A DNA stretch of 12,520 bases from Gallionella sp. (lineage in GTDB: Bacteria > Pseudomonadota > Gammaproteobacteria > Burkholderiales > Gallionellaceae): contig SCPW01000447.1 of assembly GCA_004298605.1 (NCBI GenBank), positions 1-12,520 of the forward strand. Reading direction: 5' to 3'. Of this stretch, positions 1,992-12,380 are shown piece by piece. Position 1 is the stretch's first letter. Each line of letters opens with the position of its first letter. Position numbers and translations under genes: made by a program. Below the pieces are notes generated by a model. The model was not told where the DNA came from and did not search any database. It saw only the letters and a program-made list of their open reading frames with translations.

Positions 1992-3293
1992 ATGAAGTTT
2001 TTTCTGAAATTTACATCGGGCCATGGCAGGTTTAACTTTGTTTTGGTCATACTGCTCGCGGCTTGGCTGTTGCCTGCCAATGGAGCCGAGGAACGTTTGC
2101 TGGGCTCCAATCTTGCCGGGCTGCTGGATTACGCGCGCGAGCACAACCCGGAATTGGCGGCGATGCGCCACGAGGCGGATGCGGCGGTACAACGCGTCCA
2201 GCCCTCGGCAGCCTTGCCCGACCCGGTATTCCGCGCCGAGCTGATGGACATCACCAACCGCGATATGGACAAGGGCGCCAGCCTGCTCCCATCGCAGGTG
2301 GGCAGCACGCGCTACACCTTGATGCAGAGCGTGCCGTGGGCCGGCAAGCGCGATTTGAAGCGGGGGGCGGCCGAGGCCGGTGCGGAGCAGGCGCGGGGGC
2401 GAACCGCCGCGACCTGGGCGGAATTGTCGGCGCAAATCAAGTCTGTTTACGCGCAGTACCACTACGTTGCGGGCAGCCAGAAAATCACCCGCGATCTGCT
2501 CGATCTGGTGGTGCAGATGGAGAAAGTGGCGCAGATCCGTTATGCCAACGGGCTTGCCGCGCAGCAAGACGCGGTGCGCGCGCAAGTCGAACAAACGGTC
2601 ATGAAAACCGGACTGGTCGCGCTGGATAATTCCAGACGGCAAACCGAGGCACGGCTGAATGCCTTGTTGTCGCGCCCGGCGAACATGCCGCTTGCCGCGC
2701 CGCAGCAATTACGCGGCATCCCCGCAACGGCCAGCCTGGAAAATTATGCGGCGCTGGAAAACCGTATCCGCGAACACAACCCGGATTTGTTTGCCGACGA
2801 GGCGGGCATCCGCGCGGGTGAAAAGAATCGTGATCTCGCTTACAAAAACCGTTATCCGGATTTCGCGCTGGGCATTTCCCCGACACAGTTTGGATCCGCA
2901 GTACGCGAATGGGGCGTGATGGTCGAACTCAACATTCCGTTGCAGCAAGAGACGCGCCGTTCGCAGGAGCGCGAGTCCGAGGCCATGCTGGCGGCAGCCA
3001 GGGCGCGCAAGGAGGCGACCGCCAACCGCATCCTGTCCGCGCTGGCCGAAAACCTGTCCGGCCTCGACGCGGCGCAGCGCACCGGGTCGCTGAGTTCCGG
3101 CAGCCTGTTGCCGCAAGCGAATGTCGCCTTTGAATCCGCGTTAACCGGCTATCAGACCGGCAGGGTGGATTTTGCGGCGCTGCTGGATGCGGTGCGGCAA
3201 ATTCTGAATGCCAGGCTGGAAGTGCTGAAAGCCCAGACCGACGCGCAGATGCGTTTGGCGGAGATCGAACGATTGTTGGGAGAAGAATTATGA
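1992..3293 (+). CDS. cusC: Outer membrane factor of Cu/Ag RND efflux pump (CusC/CzcC type)
   Basis: This 433-residue TolC-family protein would form the trimeric outer membrane channel of the tripartite pump with CusB and CusA. Residues 1 to about 33 form a signal peptide (LVILLAAWLLPANGA). No lipobox cysteine is visible, unlike E. coli CusC, so it resembles CzcC-type factors. The internal duplication typical of outer membrane factors shows as paired motifs AREHNPEL (near residue 48) and REHNPDL (near 260), each opening a long helical region. ATG 1992 is preferred over the in-frame TTG at 1977 because GAGGA at 1979-1983 lies 8 bases before it. The stop overlaps the cusB start by four bases (ATGA), which implies translational coupling. 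Metal specificity is inferred from the neighbours. Confidence 0.88.
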   Translation: MKFFLKFTSGHGRFNFVLVILLAAWLLPANGAEERLLGSNLAGLLDYAREHNPELAAMRHEADAAVQRVQPSAALPDPVFRAELMDITNRDMDKGASLLPSQVGSTRYTLMQSVPWAGKRDLKRGAAEAGAEQARGRTAATWAELSAQIKSVYAQYHYVAGSQKITRDLLDLVVQMEKVAQIRYANGLAAQQDAVRAQVEQTVMKTGLVALDNSRRQTEARLNALLSRPANMPLAAPQQLRGIPATASLENYAALENRIREHNPDLFADEAGIRAGEKNRDLAYKNRYPDFALGISPTQFGSAVREWGVMVELNIPLQQETRRSQERESEAMLAAARARKEATANRILSALAENLSGLDAAQRTGSLSSGSLLPQANVAFESALTGYQTGRVDFAALLDAVRQILNARLEVLKAQTDAQMRLAEIERLLGEEL

Positions 3294-4966
3294 AACCGAT
3301 TACCGGAATATTCATAGGCGCGGTTTTGCTGGGCGCCGGCGCGGGCGGCTATTGGCTGGGAGCCCAGAAGGCAGATGGCATCTCCTCACCTGACAAGGGG
3401 AGGTCGGGAGGGGTTGACAGAGGGCAGAGGACAGAAAAAGAGCACGCCCGCAAAATTCTTTATTACCGCAACCCGATGGGTTTGCCCGATACCTCGCCGA
3501 CGCCCAAAAAAGACGCGATGGGTATGGACTATGTTGCAGTGTACGAAGGAGAAGAAGGGTTGGGCGGCGGCAATCAAGCCGCTTCGCCCTCCGCTGCCTC
3601 AGGAGGCTCAGGGCAGTTAAAAATCAGCGTCGAGAAGGTGCAAAAGCTGGGGGTGAAAACCGAACCGGCAACGATGCGCGTATTTGATAAGGCGTTACGC
3701 GCCGTTGGCAGGGTGGAAGTCAATGAGCAGCATATTCACAATATTGCGCCCAAATTTGAGGGCTGGATCGAAAAACTGCATGTGAAAACGACTGGAGAGC
3801 CGGTCAAAAAGGGGCAGGCGCTGTTCGATGTGTACAGCCCGGAACTGGTATCGGCGCAGCGCGAATACGCGATTGCCGTGCAAGGTGTCGCGGCATTGAA
3901 AAATGCGGATAGCGATACCAGACAGAGCATGCAAAGGCTTGCCGATGCCAGCCTGCAACGCCTCAAAAACTGGGATATTTCCGAGCAGCAGGTAAAAGAT
4001 TTGGCCAAATCCGAGACCGCCAGGCGCAGCCTGACCTTTCATGCTTTTCATACGCCGGTGAATGGCATTGTGCTGGAGAAAAAGGCCGTGGAGGGGATGC
4101 GCTTCATGCCCGGTGAAATGTTGTATCAAATCGCCGATCTTTCCCATGTGTGGGTGATAGCCGATGTGTTCGAACAGGATATCGCCCTGGTAAAGACGGG
4201 CGCCAAGGCAAAAGTGAAGATCAATGCCTACCCGGACAAGTTGTTCGAGGGCGCCATTACCTACGTTTACCCGACCCTGAATCCGGCAACCCGCACCATT
4301 CCGGTACGGCTGGAGATCGCCAATCCGGGAGGGCTGCTGAAGCCGGCCATGTTTGCCCAAGTGGAGATCACGGTTGCCGACAAGGGCAAGGTGCTGACCG
4401 TGCCGATTTCCGCCGTTATCGATAGCGGCACGCGCCACATCGCGCTCGTCCAGCTCGCCGAAGGACGCTTCGAACCGCGTGCCGTCAGTTTGGGCAAACG
4501 CAGCGACAATTATGTGGAAGTGTTGGGCGGTGTCGCCGAAGGTGAACAGGTGGTCGTGGCGGCCAATTTCCTGATCGACGCGGAGAGTAATCTCAAAGCG
4601 GCGCTGGGCGGGCTCGGCCATGCGCACGGCGGTGAGACAAAGGATGCGAAAGGCATCGCCCAACCGGCAGCGGAACTTGCGGGGCAGGGTGCGTCAGAGC
4701 AGCCTGAACCGGCTGCGGTGGGGTATCAGACCGAAGGCACGCTGGATGCCCTCAACGCGGATGGTACGGTCAAAGTCACGCACGGCCAGATCAAGGCGCT
4801 GGGCTGGCCGGGGATGACCATGGATCTCGCCTTGGCCAATCCATCGCTGGTGAGCGGCGTAAAAATTGGCGGCGCGATCAGCTTTGAAATTGTCGAGCGC
4901 AAGCCGGGCGAATGGGTGATTACCAAGCTGCAAGCCAAGCCGGGCAAACCTCACGAAGGCCATTGA
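3290..4966 (+). CDS. cusB: Periplasmic adaptor CusB with N-terminal metal-binding and C-terminal CusF domains
   Basis: This 558-residue membrane fusion protein links CusA to CusC and passes Cu(I)/Ag(I) to the pump. Residues 1-25 form a membrane anchor. Residues 58-86 (YYRNPMGLPDTSPTPKKDAM and onward) match the heavy-metal-binding domain found at the N-terminus of many CusB-type adaptors. The adaptor core (hairpin, lipoyl, beta-barrel and membrane-proximal parts) follows from about 110 to 450. From Y479 on is a fused CusF domain with H498, W506, M509 and M511, whose spacing (8, 3, 2) equals E. coli CusF H36, W44, M47, M49. These are the Cu(I)/Ag(I) ligands plus the capping tryptophan, and they are the best evidence for substrate in this locus. 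Residues 31-43 appear to derive from a degenerate palindromic repeat. The start overlaps the cusC stop. Confidence 0.93.
   Translation: MKPITGIFIGAVLLGAGAGGYWLGAQKADGISSPDKGRSGGVDRGQRTEKEHARKILYYRNPMGLPDTSPTPKKDAMGMDYVAVYEGEEGLGGGNQAASPSAASGGSGQLKISVEKVQKLGVKTEPATMRVFDKALRAVGRVEVNEQHIHNIAPKFEGWIEKLHVKTTGEPVKKGQALFDVYSPELVSAQREYAIAVQGVAALKNADSDTRQSMQRLADASLQRLKNWDISEQQVKDLAKSETARRSLTFHAFHTPVNGIVLEKKAVEGMRFMPGEMLYQIADLSHVWVIADVFEQDIALVKTGAKAKVKINAYPDKLFEGAITYVYPTLNPATRTIPVRLEIANPGGLLKPAMFAQVEITVADKGKVLTVPISAVIDSGTRHIALVQLAEGRFEPRAVSLGKRSDNYVEVLGGVAEGEQVVVAANFLIDAESNLKAALGGLGHAHGGETKDAKGIAQPAAELAGQGASEQPEPAAVGYQTEGTLDALNADGTVKVTHGQIKALGWPGMTMDLALANPSLVSGVKIGGAISFEIVERKPGEWVITKLQAKPGKPHEGH
3384..3417. 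repeat. Degenerate palindromic repeat inside cusB coding sequence
   Basis: CCTCACCT (3384-3391) and AGGGGAGG (3396-3403) form an 8-bp stem with one mismatch around GACA, followed by TCGGGAGGGGTTGA. This resembles the core and GT-rich flank of the repeat family found between cusB and cusA. It is translated in frame as residues 31-43, rich in Gly/Ser/Pro, in the linker after the membrane anchor. Divergence suggests an old copy, or chance in a GC-rich linker. Confidence 0.45.
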
Positions 4967-4980
4967 TGATGCTCTTTCTA

Positions 4981-5063
4981 CCCATCCCCACCCCAACCCT
5001 CCCCTTGAAGGGGAGGGAGCTAAACTCCTTCCCCTTCAGGGGGAAGGCGGGGATGGGGGTGGG
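4981..5063 (+). repeat. Palindromic repeat unit, forward copy 1
   Basis: This 83-bp unit starts 14 bp after the cusB stop. It contains two palindromes: CCCTCCCCTT and AAGGGGAGGG around one base (4997-5017), then CCTTCCCC and GGGGAAGG (5027-5047). It is bounded by CCCATCCCC and a GATGGGGGTGGG end, so the termini are imperfect inverted repeats. Nearly the same unit lies inside cusA (7131-7214). As mRNA it would form two strong hairpins after cusB and could attenuate or stabilise the operon transcript. Confidence 0.9.
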
Positions 5064-5069
5064 TTAGGG

Positions 5070-5146
5070 TGGGGATGGGCGGGGTCGGACAATGTCTTTC
5101 ACGTTCGCTCCCTCCCCTTCAAGGGGAGGGTTGGGGTGGGGATGGG
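5070..5146 (-). repeat. Palindromic repeat unit, reverse copy 1 (40-bp arm)
   Basis: Bases 5107-5146 are the exact reverse complement of 4981-5020, a perfect 40-bp inverted repeat, and carry the core palindrome at 5110-5130. Bases 5070-5106 match, with differences, the linker of the units at 5603-5672 and 5770-5839 (shared GTCGGA, GTGTC-like and CACGTT blocks). The arm ends 33 bp before the DUF559 gene. Confidence 0.9.
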
Positions 5147-5575
5147 TGAGAGCGCCAAACTGAAAACGCGAGGTAAGAAATGAAAGGCCAAACAAACTCT
5201 TTTATCCTGGAAAACCGGCTACAGAGATCGCTGCGCCGCAACATGACCGATGCCGAGCAGGCGCTGTGGAGGCGGCTACGCGGCGGCCAGATCAAAGGGT
5301 GCAAATTCAGGCGACAGCATCCGTTCAACGATTTCATTCTGGATTTTGTTTGCCTGGAAGCGAGGCTGGTCGTGGAGGTTGATGGCGGGCAACACAATGA
5401 TTCGGTCGAGGATGCGCTTCGCGATCAAGCTCTGTCCAACGCGGGTTTTCGGGTCATGCGTTTTTGGAACAATCAGGTGTTGGATGAGATTGAATCGGTT
5501 GTTGAAGCTGTTTGGCTGGAGCTTGAAAAGCTGGACCCATCCCCACCCCAACCCTCCCCTTGAAGGGGAGGGAGC
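5107..5575 (+). mobile_element. Candidate DUF559-repeat cassette
   Basis: Perfect 40-bp inverted repeats (5107-5146 and 5536-5575) bracket a single short gene, giving a 469-bp unit inserted in the cusB-cusA gap of an otherwise compact operon. The right repeat supplies the gene's last eight codons and its stop. Further related repeats lie on both sides and inside neighbouring genes, so the unit looks like one member of a dispersed family rather than a simple insertion sequence. I see no transposase and no obvious target-site duplication. Mobility by DUF559 is inference. Simple recombination between repeats could also have placed it. Confidence 0.5.
5180..5563 (+). CDS. DUF559 / Vsr-like endonuclease-domain protein
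   Basis: This 127-residue protein matches the DUF559 family, small proteins related to Vsr and PD-(D/E)XK nucleases. Typical features are a helical start with TDAEQALWRRLR (residues 23-34), KFRRQHPF (42-49), then the putative catalytic strand pair with D55, E66, D68 and H72 (LVVEVDGGQH), and a C-terminal helix after RFWNNQVL. It probably cuts or nicks DNA in the cytoplasm, but no function is established for the family as far as I know. GAGGT at 5170-5174 supports the ATG at 5180. Residues 120-127 (PSPPQPSP) and the TGA are encoded by the flanking repeat. It interrupts the cusB-cusA junction in the same orientation, so it would be transcribed with the operon. Confidence 0.87.
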   Translation: MKGQTNSFILENRLQRSLRRNMTDAEQALWRRLRGGQIKGCKFRRQHPFNDFILDFVCLEARLVVEVDGGQHNDSVEDALRDQALSNAGFRVMRFWNNQVLDEIESVVEAVWLELEKLDPSPPQPSP

Positions 5576-5600
5576 CAAACCTCTTCCCCTTCAGGGGTCA
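5536..5600 (+). repeat. Palindromic repeat unit, forward copy 2, overlapping DUF559 stop
   Basis: Bases 5536-5575 are identical to 4981-5020. The core palindrome lies at 5552-5572. The second palindrome is shortened (TTCCCC and GGGG around TTCA) compared with copy 1. The unit overlaps the 3' end of the DUF559 gene and contains its stop codon at 5561-5563. Confidence 0.9.
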
Positions 5601-5602
5601 GG

Positions 5603-5672
5603 GTGGGGATGGGTGAGTCGGATAGTGTCTCCCACGTTTGTCCCCTCCCCTTCAAGGGGAGGGTTAGGGTGG
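5603..5672 (-). repeat. 70-bp repeat, first of an exact direct pair
   Basis: This segment is identical to 5770-5839 over 70 bp. It comprises the linker (GATGGG, GTCGGATAGTGTC, CACGTTTGTC) and the reverse-oriented core palindrome at 5643-5663. A diverged relative occupies 5070-5146. Confidence 0.9.
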
Positions 5673-5769: not shown

Positions 5770-5846
5770 GTGGGGATGGGTGAGTCGGATAGTGTCTCCC
5801 ACGTTTGTCCCCTCCCCTTCAAGGGGAGGGTTAGGGTGGGGATGGG
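5770..5846 (-). repeat. 70-bp repeat, second copy, just upstream of cusA
   Basis: Bases 5770-5839 repeat 5603-5672 exactly, and 5840-5846 complete the GGATGGG end that the first copy lost. The core palindrome is at 5810-5830. The unit ends 13 bases before the cusA Shine-Dalgarno (GGAG at 5859-5862), so its hairpin could influence cusA translation initiation. Confidence 0.9.
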
Positions 5847-5867: not shown

Positions 5868-8800
5868 ATGTTAAGCACCATCATAGCTTGGTCGGCGCGC
5901 AATCGCTTCCTGGTGATTATCGCCACATTGTTCATCACGCTGGCGGGCATTTACGCACTGGTCAAAACGCCGCTGGATGCCTTGCCGGATTTGTCGGATG
6001 TGCAGGTGATCGTTTTTACCGAATATCCCGGACAGGCGCCGCAAGTGGTGGAAGATCAGGTCACTTATCCGCTGACTACCTCCATGATTTCGGTGCCGAA
6101 ATCCAAGGTGGTGCGCGGCTTTTCGGTGTTCGGCGCGTCCTTCGTGTATGTGATTTTCGAGGACGGCACCGATCTGTATTGGGCGCGCTCGCGGGTGCTG
6201 GAATACCTCAATTTTGCTTCCGGCAAATTGCCCAAGGGCGTGACGCCGCAGATCGGCCCGGATGCGACCGGGGTCGGCTGGGTGTACCAGTACGCGGTGA
6301 TCGGCGTACACAAGACGCTGGCCGAACTGCGCACCATCCAGGACTGGTTTCTGCGCTACCAGCTCACCAAGGCGCACGGGGTATCGGAAGTGGCTTCGGT
6401 CGGCGGCTTCGTGCAGCAGTATCAGGTGATTGTTGATCCGGTGAAGCTGCGCGCCTATGGCATCCCGCTGATGAAGGTCACGCAGGTGATCCGCGAGTCC
6501 AACCGCGATGTCGGCGGGCGCGTCGTGGAAATGGCCGAGACCGAGTACATGGTGCGCGGCAGGGGCTATCTGCGCGGCAAGGGCGACATCGAGAATCTGG
6601 TGGTCAAGGCGGAGATGGGCACGCCGGTGCTGATCCGCGACATCGCGCGGGTCGAGCTCGGCCCGGACGAGCGGCGCGGCCTCACTGAGTTGAACGGCGA
6701 AGGTGAAGTGGTGTCCGGCATCGTGATGGCGCGCTATGGGCAGAACGCGCTGGAGGTGATCGAGAATGTAAAAGCAAAAATTGCCGAGGTGTCATCTGGC
6801 CTACCTGCAGGCGTGACCATCCAGGCGGTGTATGACCGTTCCGACCTGATCCATCGCGCCATCGATACCCTAAAGCGCACGCTGCTGGAGGAAAGCATCA
6901 TCGTCGCGCTGGTGTGTATGGTGTTCCTGATGCACGCGCGCAGCGCGCTGGTGGCGATCGTGATGCTGCCCATCGGCGTGCTGATCGCCATCATCGCGAT
7001 GCGCGCGCTGGGCATGAATTCCAACATCATGAGCCTGGGCGGAATTGCGATTGCAATCGGCGCGATGGTGGATGCGGCGATCGTGATGATCGAGAATGCG
7101 CACAAGCATTTGGAGCGCTTGGAAAGCAACCCCATCCCCTCCCCAACCCTCCCCTTGAAGGGGAGGGAGCGATCGCCCCTTCCCCTTCAGGGGGAAGGTC
7201 GGGATGGGGGTGGGGGCAGTGCAATGTCACAGCGCGCCAACGCCATCCTCGCCGCCTGCAAAGAAGTTGGCCCGGCGTTGTTTTTCTCGCTGCTGATTAT
7301 CACCGTGTCGTTCCTGCCGGTGTTCACGCTGGAGGCGCAGGAAGGGCGGCTGTTCGCGCCGCTCGCCTTTACCAAGACTTTCTCGATGGCGGGTGCGGCG
7401 TTGCTGTCGGTCACGCTGGTTCCGGTGCTGATGATGCTGTTCATTCGCGGCAAAATTATGCCGGAGGCGAAAAATCCGCTGAACCGCTTTCTGATCTGGG
7501 TTTATCGCCCGGTTATCGCGGCGGTGATGCGCTGGAAGAAAACGACGGTCGTCGCCGCGCTGGTGGTGCTGGGTGTTTCGATCTATCCGGCGACCAAGCT
7601 GGGCAGCGAATTCATGCCGACCCTCAACGAGGGCACGCTGCTCTATATGCCGGCCTCGCTGCCCGCGATGTCGATCACCAAGGCTGCCGAGCTGTTGCAG
7701 ACGCAGGACAAGATCATCAAGAGTTTCCCCGAAGTCGCGTCGGTGTACGGCAAGGCGGGGCGCGCGCAGACCGCCACCGATCCGGCTCCACCGGAGATGT
7801 TCGAGACCGTGATCAACCTCAAGCCCGAGGCCGAGTGGCGCGCCGGGATGAACATCGACAAGCTGATCGCGGAAATGGACAAGGCGCTGCAATTTCCGGG
7901 TATGGCCAATTCGTGGACCATGCCGATCAAGGCGCGCCTCGACATGCTCGCTACCGGTATCCGCACGCCGATCGGCATCAAGGTGTACGGCAAAGACCTG
8001 GACGGGATAGAGCGCGTGGCCAAGGAAATCGAAGCGGCGGTCAAGCAGGTGCCGGGTACGACCAGCGCGTTTGCCGAGCGCATTACCGGCGGTTTTTATC
8101 TCGATATCGTGCCCGACCGGGAAGCGCTGGCGCGCTATGGCATGGCGGTCGGCGAGTTGCAGGATGTCATTTCCACCGCGCTGGGCGGCGAGATGGTGAC
8201 CACCACGGTGGAGGGGCGCGAACGCTTCGGCGTGATCGTCCGCTATCCGCGCGAATTGCGCGGCAGCCCCGAGCTGATCGCGCGCGAGGTGCTGATACCA
8301 ACCATGGACGGCGCGATGATTCCGCTCGGGCAGCTCGCCAGAGTGGAAGTGGTCAAGGGCGCACCCGCGATACGCACCGAAAACGCGCTGCTGTCCGCCT
8401 ACATTTTCGTGGACATCCGCGACCGCGACATCGGTTCCTATGTGGCCGATGCGCGCCGTGCGGTGGCGGAGCAAGTGAAATTTCCGCCCGGCTATTACGC
8501 GACATGGAGCGGGCAGTTCGAATACATGGAACGCGCCGAAGCCAAGATGAAGATCGTGGTGCCGATCACCTTGCTGATTATTTTCCTGCTGCTCTACCTC
8601 AACTTCAGGCGCGTCACGGAAGCCCTGATCGTGATGCTCTCCGTGCCGTTCGCGCTGGTCGGCGGCGTGTGGCTGCTGTGGCTGCTCGGCTACAACCTGT
8701 CGGTCGCCGTGGTGGTGGGTTTCATCGCGCTGGCCGGGGTGGCGGCGGAAACCGGCGTGGTGATGCTGATCTATCTGGAACATGCATGGGAACGGATCAA

Positions 8801-9101
8801 GGCGCAACGCGAGGCCGATGGGCAATATCCGACTGCCGGCGATCTCTACGCGGCGGTCATGGAAGGCGCGGTCGAGCGGGTGAGGCCGAAGATGATGACG
8901 GTGGTCGCGATCATGGCCGGCCTGCTGCCGATCATGTGGGGAACCGGCACCGGCTCCGAGGTCATGCGCCGCATTGCCGCACCGATGGTAGGCGGCATGA
9001 TTTCCTCGACGATACTGACGCTGGCAGTCATACCGGCCATTTACGCGCTGGTAAAGGAAGCCACTTTGTTCAGCAAGGGCGGCAAAAACAATTTATCTTG
9101 A
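5868..9101 (+). CDS. cusA: Cu(I)/Ag(I) RND efflux transporter CusA with in-frame repeat insertion
   Basis: This 1077-residue inner-membrane proton-driven pump is the motor of the CusCBA complex; E. coli CusA has 1047. The heavy-metal RND hallmarks are present: TM1 near 12-30, TM2 near 342-360, the TM4 motif GAMVDAAIVMIEN with proton-relay D402, E961 in GFIALAGVAAETG, and K1008 in RVRPKMMTV. The periplasmic Cu/Ag methionine triad is intact: M594 (LLYMPAS), M644 (PPEMFET) and M693 (RLDMLATG), each 21 positions after E. coli M573, M623 and M672. Residues 422-449 (Pro/Gly-rich) are translated from a palindromic repeat unit and lengthen the cytoplasmic loop between TM4 and TM5. The start has GGAG five bases upstream. 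It lies 901 bp from cusB instead of being adjacent. The intact frame around the insertion suggests a functional pump. Confidence 0.95.
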   Translation: MLSTIIAWSARNRFLVIIATLFITLAGIYALVKTPLDALPDLSDVQVIVFTEYPGQAPQVVEDQVTYPLTTSMISVPKSKVVRGFSVFGASFVYVIFEDGTDLYWARSRVLEYLNFASGKLPKGVTPQIGPDATGVGWVYQYAVIGVHKTLAELRTIQDWFLRYQLTKAHGVSEVASVGGFVQQYQVIVDPVKLRAYGIPLMKVTQVIRESNRDVGGRVVEMAETEYMVRGRGYLRGKGDIENLVVKAEMGTPVLIRDIARVELGPDERRGLTELNGEGEVVSGIVMARYGQNALEVIENVKAKIAEVSSGLPAGVTIQAVYDRSDLIHRAIDTLKRTLLEESIIVALVCMVFLMHARSALVAIVMLPIGVLIAIIAMRALGMNSNIMSLGGIAIAIGAMVDAAIVMIENAHKHLERLESNPIPSPTLPLKGRERSPLPLQGEGRDGGGGSAMSQRANAILAACKEVGPALFFSLLIITVSFLPVFTLEAQEGRLFAPLAFTKTFSMAGAALLSVTLVPVLMMLFIRGKIMPEAKNPLNRFLIWVYRPVIAAVMRWKKTTVVAALVVLGVSIYPATKLGSEFMPTLNEGTLLYMPASLPAMSITKAAELLQTQDKIIKSFPEVASVYGKAGRAQTATDPAPPEMFETVINLKPEAEWRAGMNIDKLIAEMDKALQFPGMANSWTMPIKARLDMLATGIRTPIGIKVYGKDLDGIERVAKEIEAAVKQVPGTTSAFAERITGGFYLDIVPDREALARYGMAVGELQDVISTALGGEMVTTTVEGRERFGVIVRYPRELRGSPELIAREVLIPTMDGAMIPLGQLARVEVVKGAPAIRTENALLSAYIFVDIRDRDIGSYVADARRAVAEQVKFPPGYYATWSGQFEYMERAEAKMKIVVPITLLIIFLLLYLNFRRVTEALIVMLSVPFALVGGVWLLWLLGYNLSVAVVVGFIALAGVAAETGVVMLIYLEHAWERIKAQREADGQYPTAGDLYAAVMEGAVERVRPKMMTVVAIMAGLLPIMWGTGTGSEVMRRIAAPMVGGMISSTILTLAVIPAIYALVKEATLFSKGGKNNLS
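7131..7214 (+). repeat. Palindromic repeat unit translated in frame within cusA
   Basis: This 84-bp copy matches 4981-5063 almost base for base, with a few differences mostly in the spacer between palindromes. The core palindrome is at 7147-7167 and the second at 7178-7198. It is one base longer than the intergenic copy, and 84 is divisible by three, so the host frame is kept. It encodes PIPSPTLPLKGRER and a following Pro/Gly-rich stretch. Confidence 0.92.
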
Positions 9102-11657: not shown

Positions 11658-12380
11658 ATGAAAAAATTATTAATTGGTGGCATGGTTGCGGTGTTGTGCA
11701 TGGGTGCGCCGGTGGTTTATGCCGATGATGCGCATCATCCCGGACAGAGCAGCGCGCCTGCGGCCAAGCCCGCTCCGGGAAAAAATGTACCGTCCAGGCA
11801 GCCTGCCGCATCCGATAAATCCATGAGTGGCGAAAAGTGCGACGGCGATGCGCAGATGGGCAGGGCGCAGGAGCGCATGGAACAGGCGCAGGCGCTCATG
11901 GCCAAGCTGCGCGAAGCCAAAAACCCTGCCGAGCGCCAAAAGCTTATGCGGGAGCACACGCAGGCTTTGCGCGACGTCATGGGTATGATGCGGGGCATGA
12001 AAATGGGCATGATGGGCGGTGCGCATGAAATGGGTGGCGGCCATGGAATGAGCGGTGGTCATGAAAAGGGTGGCGGCCATGGAATGAGCGGTGGTCATGA
12101 AAAGGGTGGCGGCCACGAAAAGGGCGCAATGGGAGGTTGCCAGGGAGCGGGGGCGGAGGACTGCTGTCAGGGGGCAGGCTGTGGCCAGGAAATGGGTTGC
12201 GGTCAGGAAAAGGGCGGCGGCCACGAAAAGGGCGCGATGGGCGGCGGTCATGGGATGGATATGATGGGCATGATGATGATGGGTATGCACCAGATGATGG
12301 AGGATCGCATGGAGATGATGCAGATGTTGGTGGAACAGATGTTTGATCGCCAGGAAATGCTCATGCGGGATGTAAAATAA
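11658..12380 (+). CDS. Exported Met/His/Cys/Gly-rich protein, putative periplasmic metal binder
   Basis: This encodes 240 residues. Residues 1-22 form a Sec signal peptide ending Val-Tyr-Ala before Asp-Asp. A Pro/Ala-rich linker is followed by a charged helical, probably coiled-coil section (about 67-110). Then comes a low-complexity part with tandem GGGHGMSGGHEK repeats (126-149), a Cys cluster (161, 169, 170, 175, 181) and a Met-rich C-terminal helix (about 199-237). Met, His and Cys patches of this kind bind Cu(I)/Ag(I) or other soft metals, so a periplasmic metal sponge or chaperone is plausible next to a Cus system. I recognise no named family. AAAGGAA at 11645-11651 supports the start. 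It stands alone, with its own terminator. Confidence 0.75.
   Translation: MKKLLIGGMVAVLCMGAPVVYADDAHHPGQSSAPAAKPAPGKNVPSRQPAASDKSMSGEKCDGDAQMGRAQERMEQAQALMAKLREAKNPAERQKLMREHTQALRDVMGMMRGMKMGMMGGAHEMGGGHGMSGGHEKGGGHGMSGGHEKGGGHEKGAMGGCQGAGAEDCCQGAGCGQEMGCGQEKGGGHEKGAMGGGHGMDMMGMMMMGMHQMMEDRMEMMQMLVEQMFDRQEMLMRDVK
12032..12121 (+). repeat. 36-bp in-frame tandem repeat, 2.5 copies
   Basis: Two identical 36-bp units (12032-12067 and 12068-12103) are followed by a half unit (12104-12121). Each unit encodes twelve residues, GGGHGMSGGHEK. A related GGGHEKGAMGG segment recurs at about residues 186-196. The number of units could vary between strains by slippage. Confidence 0.9.

Follow-up and report, generated by a model that had tools for sequence, protein, structure and literature searches.

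A palindromic repeat in frame within cusA of Gallionella sp. and its probable DUF559 partner

In-frame palindromes and their described relatives

Short palindromic repeats within coding sequences have been described before. The portions of PMC3733652 drawn on here report Rickettsia palindromic elements (RPE) in frame in conserved genes, in-frame intragenic repetitive extragenic palindromes (REPs) in several species, many of them within genes for DNA repair, and a recB site occupied, at roughly one position, by REPs that differ between X. campestris and X. oryzae; the families treated there are GTAG- and CGTC-tagged. In-frame palindromes outside Rickettsia are, on that source, already published, so that the behaviour alone is not new. 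Here, we analyzed a 12,520-nucleotide stretch of Gallionella sp. (contig SCPW01000447.1 of assembly GCA_004298605.1; hereafter, the window), in which an 84-bp palindromic unit at positions 7131-7214 lies inside cusA, the gene for a copper-pumping metal efflux permease, close to a DUF559 gene set among units of the same type.

Two further systems serve for comparison. REPtrons, as presented in the part of PMC8266576 available to us, combine a TnpA-REP with its cognate REPs. The DUF559 protein VsrA of Caulobacter, which belongs to the same domain family as the DUF559 protein of the window, is proposed as a mismatch-repair endonuclease in PMC12907096, where ‘palindrom’ had no match in the available text. 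DUF559 is common and its role is unsettled, and the mover of palindromic repeats that lack a REP-associated tyrosine transposase (RAYT) is likewise a question in the field. The function of Vsr is in mismatch repair, and homing enzymes propagate the intron or gene to which they belong; Vsr and the EDxHD homing endonuclease I-Bth0305I are both fold relatives of DUF559, and I-Bth0305I is a sequence relative as well.

The locus shares with RPE, as far as the cited portions describe them, a palindrome placed in frame in otherwise conserved proteins, here cusA and other genes. It differs in lineage, in having several families per genome, in the DUF559 gene beside the repeats and in a single loop occupied by different families. 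Neither the CGTC tag of RPE-4/6 nor its complement was found in the 84-bp unit, the comparison with RPE being one of description. Like REP/REPIN systems with RAYT (REPIN, paired REPs), this locus has many palindromes, half-units paired in inverted order, cognate repeats on either side of a proposed partner gene and some in-frame copies; however, the flanked gene is here a DUF559 gene with a Vsr-like fold rather than a Y1 transposase. In the window, no GTAG head was found in the 10 bases that precede CCCTCCCC, nor was one present in the 84-bp unit; the single Y1_Tnp gene found in the source genome, 86% complete, has a GGAGCGCGGGCGTCCCGCCCGC-type palindrome in its flanks instead of A-type units such as that in cusA. 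In contrast to homing enzymes and Vsr, the repeats far outnumber the DUF559 gene.

In-frame palindromic insertion is therefore of a known kind (RPE, intragenic REP). For a repeat class with a probable DUF559 partner, and for a cusA loop that many families have re-occupied, no earlier report came up within the reach of the literature search, and both appear new. That search covered titles and the openings of abstracts, with bioRxiv preprints and most subscription papers outside its scope, and found no link of DUF559 to palindromic repeats other than CRISPR. We favor, with moderate confidence, the reading that the unit at 7131-7214 belongs to a mobile palindromic repeat, sits in frame in a CusA loop tolerant of inserts, and that each such family probably has a cognate DUF559 partner.

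The 84-bp unit and its family in the source genome

5868..9101, + strand: cusA, CusA/CzcA resistance-nodulation-division (RND) metal efflux permease, 1077 aa, with the repeat within the open frame; TIGR00914, 1247 bits, in two stretches
7131..7214, + strand: A-type palindromic pair of two half-units, heads outward, in frame in cusA (about 28 codons); core 7147-7167, second core 7181-7195

The initial annotation had reported an 84-bp palindromic copy within the cusA frame, and this was borne out, as the frame 5868-9101 is open throughout its 1077 aa; the insert should, judging from the sequence, be translated as part of CusA. A repeat search of the window recovered the unit as direct-repeat family D3 and inverted pair I8. 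Its predicted RNA fold reached -70.7 kcal/mol, compared to a mean of -44.66 (standard deviation 3.75) in 200 shuffles, none of which was as low. Four of its six frames are stop-free, against 3.4 in same-letter shuffles and 1.6 in random sequence of 50% GC; this proximity to the shuffle value means that the openness is mostly a matter of composition. Between fixed anchors, the loop region is 74 residues long in this CusA, compared to 50 in E. coli-like members and 42 in related genes with no insert, and we take the loop to be cytoplasmic, between transmembrane segments 4 and 5, as in RND pumps in general. A shift of 21 positions against E. coli CusA had been claimed and holds, since query 458 corresponds to chain 444 and query 1 to chain 8 (residue numbering inferred from the same alignment).

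The unit had also been called nearly identical to one at 4981-5063. A copy does lie there, at an identity of 90%, and the closest copies, at 93%, are on contigs C337 and C298. Similarly, the unit is indeed one base longer than that intergenic copy (84 vs. 83 bp), but a special role of this length was not upheld: the other full copies measure 84, 83 and 81 bp, so that 84 bp is ordinary variation with no special adaptation, and selection of the length for frame was rejected. The likeness drawn to the in-frame elements of Rickettsia was apt, as close insert-free relatives exist and other conserved genes carry such inserts. Overall, the original observation was correct and understated.

The source genome is itself a metagenome-assembled genome (MAG; G000, 2.30 Mb, 86% complete), in which repeat groups were counted in the stretches read. 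There, 65 stretches match the 84-mer, some places being counted on both strands, and the A core CCCTCCCCTTSAAGGGGAGGG with at most 2 mismatches occurs at 44 places, compared to 0 for the pattern read backwards. Half-units are about 37-40 bp long and often stand as inverted pairs. Around the cus genes, they form an array:

3290..4966, + strand: cusB with a C-terminal CusF domain, from the open reading frame (ORF) list and a family match
about 3380..3420, strand not assigned: B-type half-unit, in frame near the CusB N-terminus; core 3384-3403 with one mismatch, pattern on the - strand
4981..5063, + strand: A-type pair between cusB and the DUF559 gene
5102..5146, - strand: A-type half-unit just upstream of the DUF559 gene
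5180..5563, + strand: DUF559 gene (PF04480, E 1e-37; Vsr / homing-endonuclease fold), the proposed partner enzyme; stop codon inside the A-type core 5552-5572
5536..5613, + strand: A-type pair overlapping the end of the DUF559 gene
5643..5672, - strand: A-type half-unit with shortened head, from the repeat search
5810..5846, - strand: A-type half-unit directly upstream of cusA

Insertion into reading frames is not confined to cusA. Unique A- or B-type repeat groups in the stretches read numbered 59 in G000 and 16 in a related genome, G021. Candidate frames had to stay open over at least 60 residues to either side, and 18 of them outside the window, picked by eye as likely coding, were checked against family models; an insert was counted when it lay inside one family match or between matches of one protein. 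In G000, 12 of the 59 groups qualified, in gltB, polA, an RND permease, an acyl-CoA ligase, NAD(P)H-hydrate dehydratase, ugd, cysS, nuoG, an MmeI-like gene, an Eco57I/Alw26I-like gene (two inserts) and cusA. In G021, besides cusA (L073), inserts were found in mutS, a GAF-HD protein, ybbP, the pyruvate dehydrogenase E2 subunit, gatB and manC (6/16 groups). Two of the 18 frames tested (L010 and L323) had no family match. The gltB insert was present only in G000 among the 29 genomes in which this loop was read (30 loci fetched). The CusB N-terminal linker bearing the B-type half-unit, a second in-frame palindrome of the window that comes from a different repeat family, is 9-16 residues longer than in those close CusB relatives that cover this part, which lack the half-unit; it was left out of the in-frame counts, its left side being covered by no model.

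Different repeats in the cusA loop of relatives

In cusA genes from related genomes, the loop was delimited by the anchors IENAHKH.ER and EVGP. The 30 aligned genes leave out six distant E. coli-like loops (L080-L085), further distant genes (L139-L141), two genes missed by the regular expression and insert-free by eye (L131, L132) and four with no loop between both anchors (L133, L135, L136, L138). A palindromic insert is carried by 12 of the 30 (one per genome, G000 included), a short KEGESR-like loop by 17, and a longer non-palindromic loop by one (G025).

The 12 inserts are of several kinds. Pairs of the TTGAAG type stand heads outward in G000 and heads inward in G020 and G030; pairs of the TTGTCAGG/TTGACAGG type occupy the loop in G017, G021 and G001 and are rearranged in G013; single units of the CGGCGGG, CTCGCGGG and GCAAGC types were found in G007, G016 and G027; G009 carries a CCTTTGG type, and the insert of G023 was seen as peptide only. 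The initial annotation had named as refuting evidence close homologues with unrelated loops of like composition, and this was found in part, since the loops of some close homologues are coded by other palindrome families. Both kinds of cusA occur within one genome in G001, G009 and G017.

Flanking DNA does not separate insert-bearing from insert-free genes. A close insert-free relative, G005, is sister to the window cusA in the flank tree, with flanks of about 92% DNA identity and the loop LKEGESRFEAML; alignment to such relatives had been proposed. Exact borders could not be defined, and no target-site duplication, as a MITE of an insertion sequence would have, was definable at cusA or gltB. 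In the tree of protein flanks, where the long non-palindromic loop L079 was scored as ‘none’, 8 changes between insert and no insert were needed, at least 6 of them forced by well-supported branches; an earlier 29-row tree also gave at least 6. A single clade of insert-bearers was rejected on protein flanks, with a log-likelihood 686 lower and a p value of 5.4e-66 in the approximately unbiased (AU) test. In five close cusA pairs, flanks were collinear up to the loop, which indicates that the exchanged tract was short.

A search with CusA residues 405-500, insert included and thus biased toward inserts, was judged at the protein level. Among the matches listed (120 of 7647), the 119 other CusA proteins had loops of 30-80 residues between the anchors chosen, almost all of them, by eye, like translated palindromes.

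DUF559 genes, their flanking hairpins and the matching palindromes

The DUF559 protein of the window has the EDxHD / Vsr-like endonuclease fold, with conserved acidic and His residues present. G000 encodes three DUF559 genes, and the other two also lie between palindromes, each of another type. DUF559 was found in 27/41 genomes of the genus sample and in 161/397 of a phylum-wide sample.

Flanks were scored for perfect hairpins (arms of at least 8, loop of at most 6) within 250 bp of the domain and for words of at least 14 shared between the two sides. In the genus, 49 DUF559 places yielded 44 taken (five were weak or partial), 42 of them through tblastn (not the long L122 and L123), and 38 with enough flank. 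A hairpin was present at 32/38 of these, hairpins on both sides at 13/38 and a shared word at 20/38, in contrast to 3/30, 0/30 and 0/30, respectively, at SmpB control loci of the genus. Outside the genus, the 29 best-scoring new loci had a hairpin in 27 cases and hairpins on both sides in 11. Named genomes provided 163 candidate stretches, of which 80 were kept and 76 were usable; here, 72/76 had a hairpin and 52/76 had one on both sides, including loci of Bradyrhizobium, Luteimonas, Parvibaculum, Dehalococcoidia and Gastranaerophilales. Measured from ORF ends in the named loci, 18/64 DUF559 ORFs had hairpins on both sides compared to 2/324 other ORFs more than 1 kb away, 49/64 compared to 77/324 had one on either side, and 16/64 compared to 1/324 shared a 14-mer. 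In six Bradyrhizobium genomes, the exact pattern of the own flanking palindrome had 1-9 copies, compared to 0 in 7 other genomes searched and 0 for the control. The named-genome loci nearest to the window DUF559 include three from Gallionella sp., and one of these three (L214) has the same flanking hairpins as L113 of G030, of the same genus.

Palindrome type follows DUF559 subfamily. With subfamilies assigned from identity and flanks, and in statistics that ignore kinship and include copies beside DUF559 itself, palindrome similarity rose with DUF559 identity over the 138 loci, out of 151, that had a palindrome and a protein of at least 85 aa, with a Spearman coefficient of 0.29 against at most 0.09 in 500 permutations; for pairs below 75% DUF559 identity, it was 0.24 against at most 0.11. 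Across 41 genomes, at least 5 copies of the A core were found in 5/5 genomes with an A-type DUF559 and in 6/36 without, and at least 5 copies of the B core in 7/7 with a B-type DUF559 and in 5/34 without (B counts sum both strands). Each repeat family probably has a working partner in a cognate DUF559 endonuclease whose gene lies among the copies of that family, in the way that REPs have RAYT transposases, the association being observed and the causation, as well as DUF559-driven movement of the repeats, inferred.

Of the candidates examined for these proteins, PADLOC matches of the three DUF559 proteins were weak (E 8e-5 and worse) and PHROGs gave one weak family of unannotated function, and no defense system is claimed from either; matches to the cholera/heat-labile toxin B chain (E 0.008 and worse) were taken as chance.

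Proposed movement of the repeats and alternative explanations

In the mechanism that we propose, DUF559 would bind its own palindrome as a hairpin or cruciform and cut it or a similar site, and repair of the break would copy a palindrome from elsewhere into the cut. Within genes, only inserts that keep the frame would survive, and C/G-rich units hold few stop codons. To judge from the variety of loops and from the flanks, the cusA loop, because it already held a C/G-rich palindrome, may have been cut and refilled repeatedly, leaving different families in different species and occasional loss. More broadly, it is an evenly balanced proposition that DUF559 proteins in several phyla are dedicated enzymes of an undescribed class of mobile palindromic repeats, a second and independent, Vsr/homing-type counterpart to REP/RAYT, with the loops of some genes, cusA among them, as lasting landing pads for the repeat family then active in the lineage.

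There are exceptions to the pairing. Of the five genomes rich in B cores with no B-type DUF559, four are at most 86% complete, but G001 is 99% complete; among the six A exceptions, which are core-rich with no A-type DUF559, G020 and G023 are 99% complete; and in G007, at 99% as well, no DUF559 gene accompanies the insert in cusA. Against repeated insertion stands the motif A-I-[LI]-[AS]-A-C-K, which follows the insert in 12/12 cases, preceded by R-A-x in 10, together with similar DNA (GCCATCCTCGCCGCCTGC, few changes), while most insert-free cusA genes differ at this motif and DNA, L097 coming close. Given this shared edge, we consider two histories equally likely: an entirely fresh insertion on each occasion, or an old cusA insert in which only the repeat part was exchanged afterwards. 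The edge, and the presence of both cusA kinds in each of G001, G009 and G017, would also suit one ancient in-frame insert followed only by short-tract recombination between cusA copies and drift. We regard this as rather unlikely, since the inserts differ in palindrome sequence, half-unit number and orientation beyond the reach of point mutation, and several belong to repeats that are multicopy in their own genome (for instance B cores in G017, G021 and G013; A cores in G000, G030 and G020), which implies that at least the repeat part was replaced, even if the edge of the loop may be old.

Somewhat less doubtful, though still improbable in our estimate, is that RAYT, an insertion sequence (IS) transposase or repair slippage spreads the palindromes and that DUF559 is a selfish homing-type gene landing in them. 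DUF559 is related to the homing endonuclease I-Bth0305I, the part of PMC9403480 drawn on here places a DUF559 gene in the EDxHD homing family, palindromes are numerous in some genomes where no cognate DUF559 was seen, and homing, too, predicts cognate specificity. Nevertheless, palindromes are more numerous where the cognate DUF559 is present, G000 has 3 DUF559 copies against dozens of palindromes, and its only Y1_Tnp (RAYT-type) gene found, in a genome 86% complete, adjoins a different palindrome. An ordinary role of the palindromes beside DUF559, as terminators or regulatory hairpins that belong to small genes and have nothing to do with mobility, is strongly disfavored: the hairpins are strong, and 77/324 other ORFs have one on at least one side, but SmpB flanks have one in only 3/30 cases, two-sided hairpins occur at only 2/324 other ORFs, long words are common to the upstream and downstream copies at 20/38 DUF559 loci, and genomes hold tens of copies, some inside reading frames. 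Least probable is an assembly or binning artefact, a repeat-mediated chimera of two cusA halves; the initial annotation had raised assembly error as a possible refutation. Nine of the 59 G000 repeat groups lie within 120 nt of a stretch end, mostly contig ends, a position to be expected of repeats when a MAG is fragmented. What speaks against a chimera is that one sister gene matches both cusA flanks at about 92%, and that 11 other genomes have a palindromic loop. A palindrome-like CusA loop, judged by eye at the protein level, also lies on a 2.74-Mb contig labelled Sideroxyarcus emersonii, which makes assembly error unlikely.

With regard to the favored reading, in which a mobile repeat and its DUF559 enzyme act together, the pairing of enzyme and repeat can be read from the flanks, so that both the role of DUF559 and the mover of RAYT-less repeats become testable with one purified protein and its neighboring DNA; the partner role of DUF559 is the part that deserves testing first. 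The cusA loop offers a natural series of selfish DNA entering a coding frame and being exchanged repeatedly within a membrane pump and, if the landing-pad reading is true, a metal pump keeps gaining new peptide from the active repeat family of its lineage.

Further elements were observed among the repeats. Identical 70-bp copies at window positions 5603-5672 and 5770-5839 surround a piece containing GGCCATGACACGGCGTT, an arrangement that suggests a further small element lodged within the A-type array; a similar junction occurs on G000 contig C351, at about 1641-1670. On G000 contigs C1, C9, C74, C77, C158, C177, C189, C214, C222, C277, C404 and C461, A-type half-units stand beside a shared or similar stretch, GTGTGATACGGTCGCTCCAGTTTTATTCCC, and together with it constitute a second, larger, multicopy composite element. 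Some A-type copies, on C84, C414, C337, C383, C298 and C54, have outward arms like GGGCGCGATG / TTGCGCCCCT, and the full element with these arms may measure about 110 bp. A RAYT-like Y1_Tnp gene (698-1435) flanked by GGAGCGCGGGCGTCCCGCCCGC-type repeats was found at locus L046; the DUF559 gene close by has separate palindromes, which places two such systems next to each other. An Rfam identity was rejected, as the 18 matches at E up to 0.1 were all to microRNA families, far under gathering scores, and were taken as hairpin chance. Finally, near the cus genes, window positions 11658-12380 encode a protein with His/Met/Gly-rich repeats of 18-bp period (GGGHGMSGGHEK) and no Pfam match, which is possibly metal-binding.
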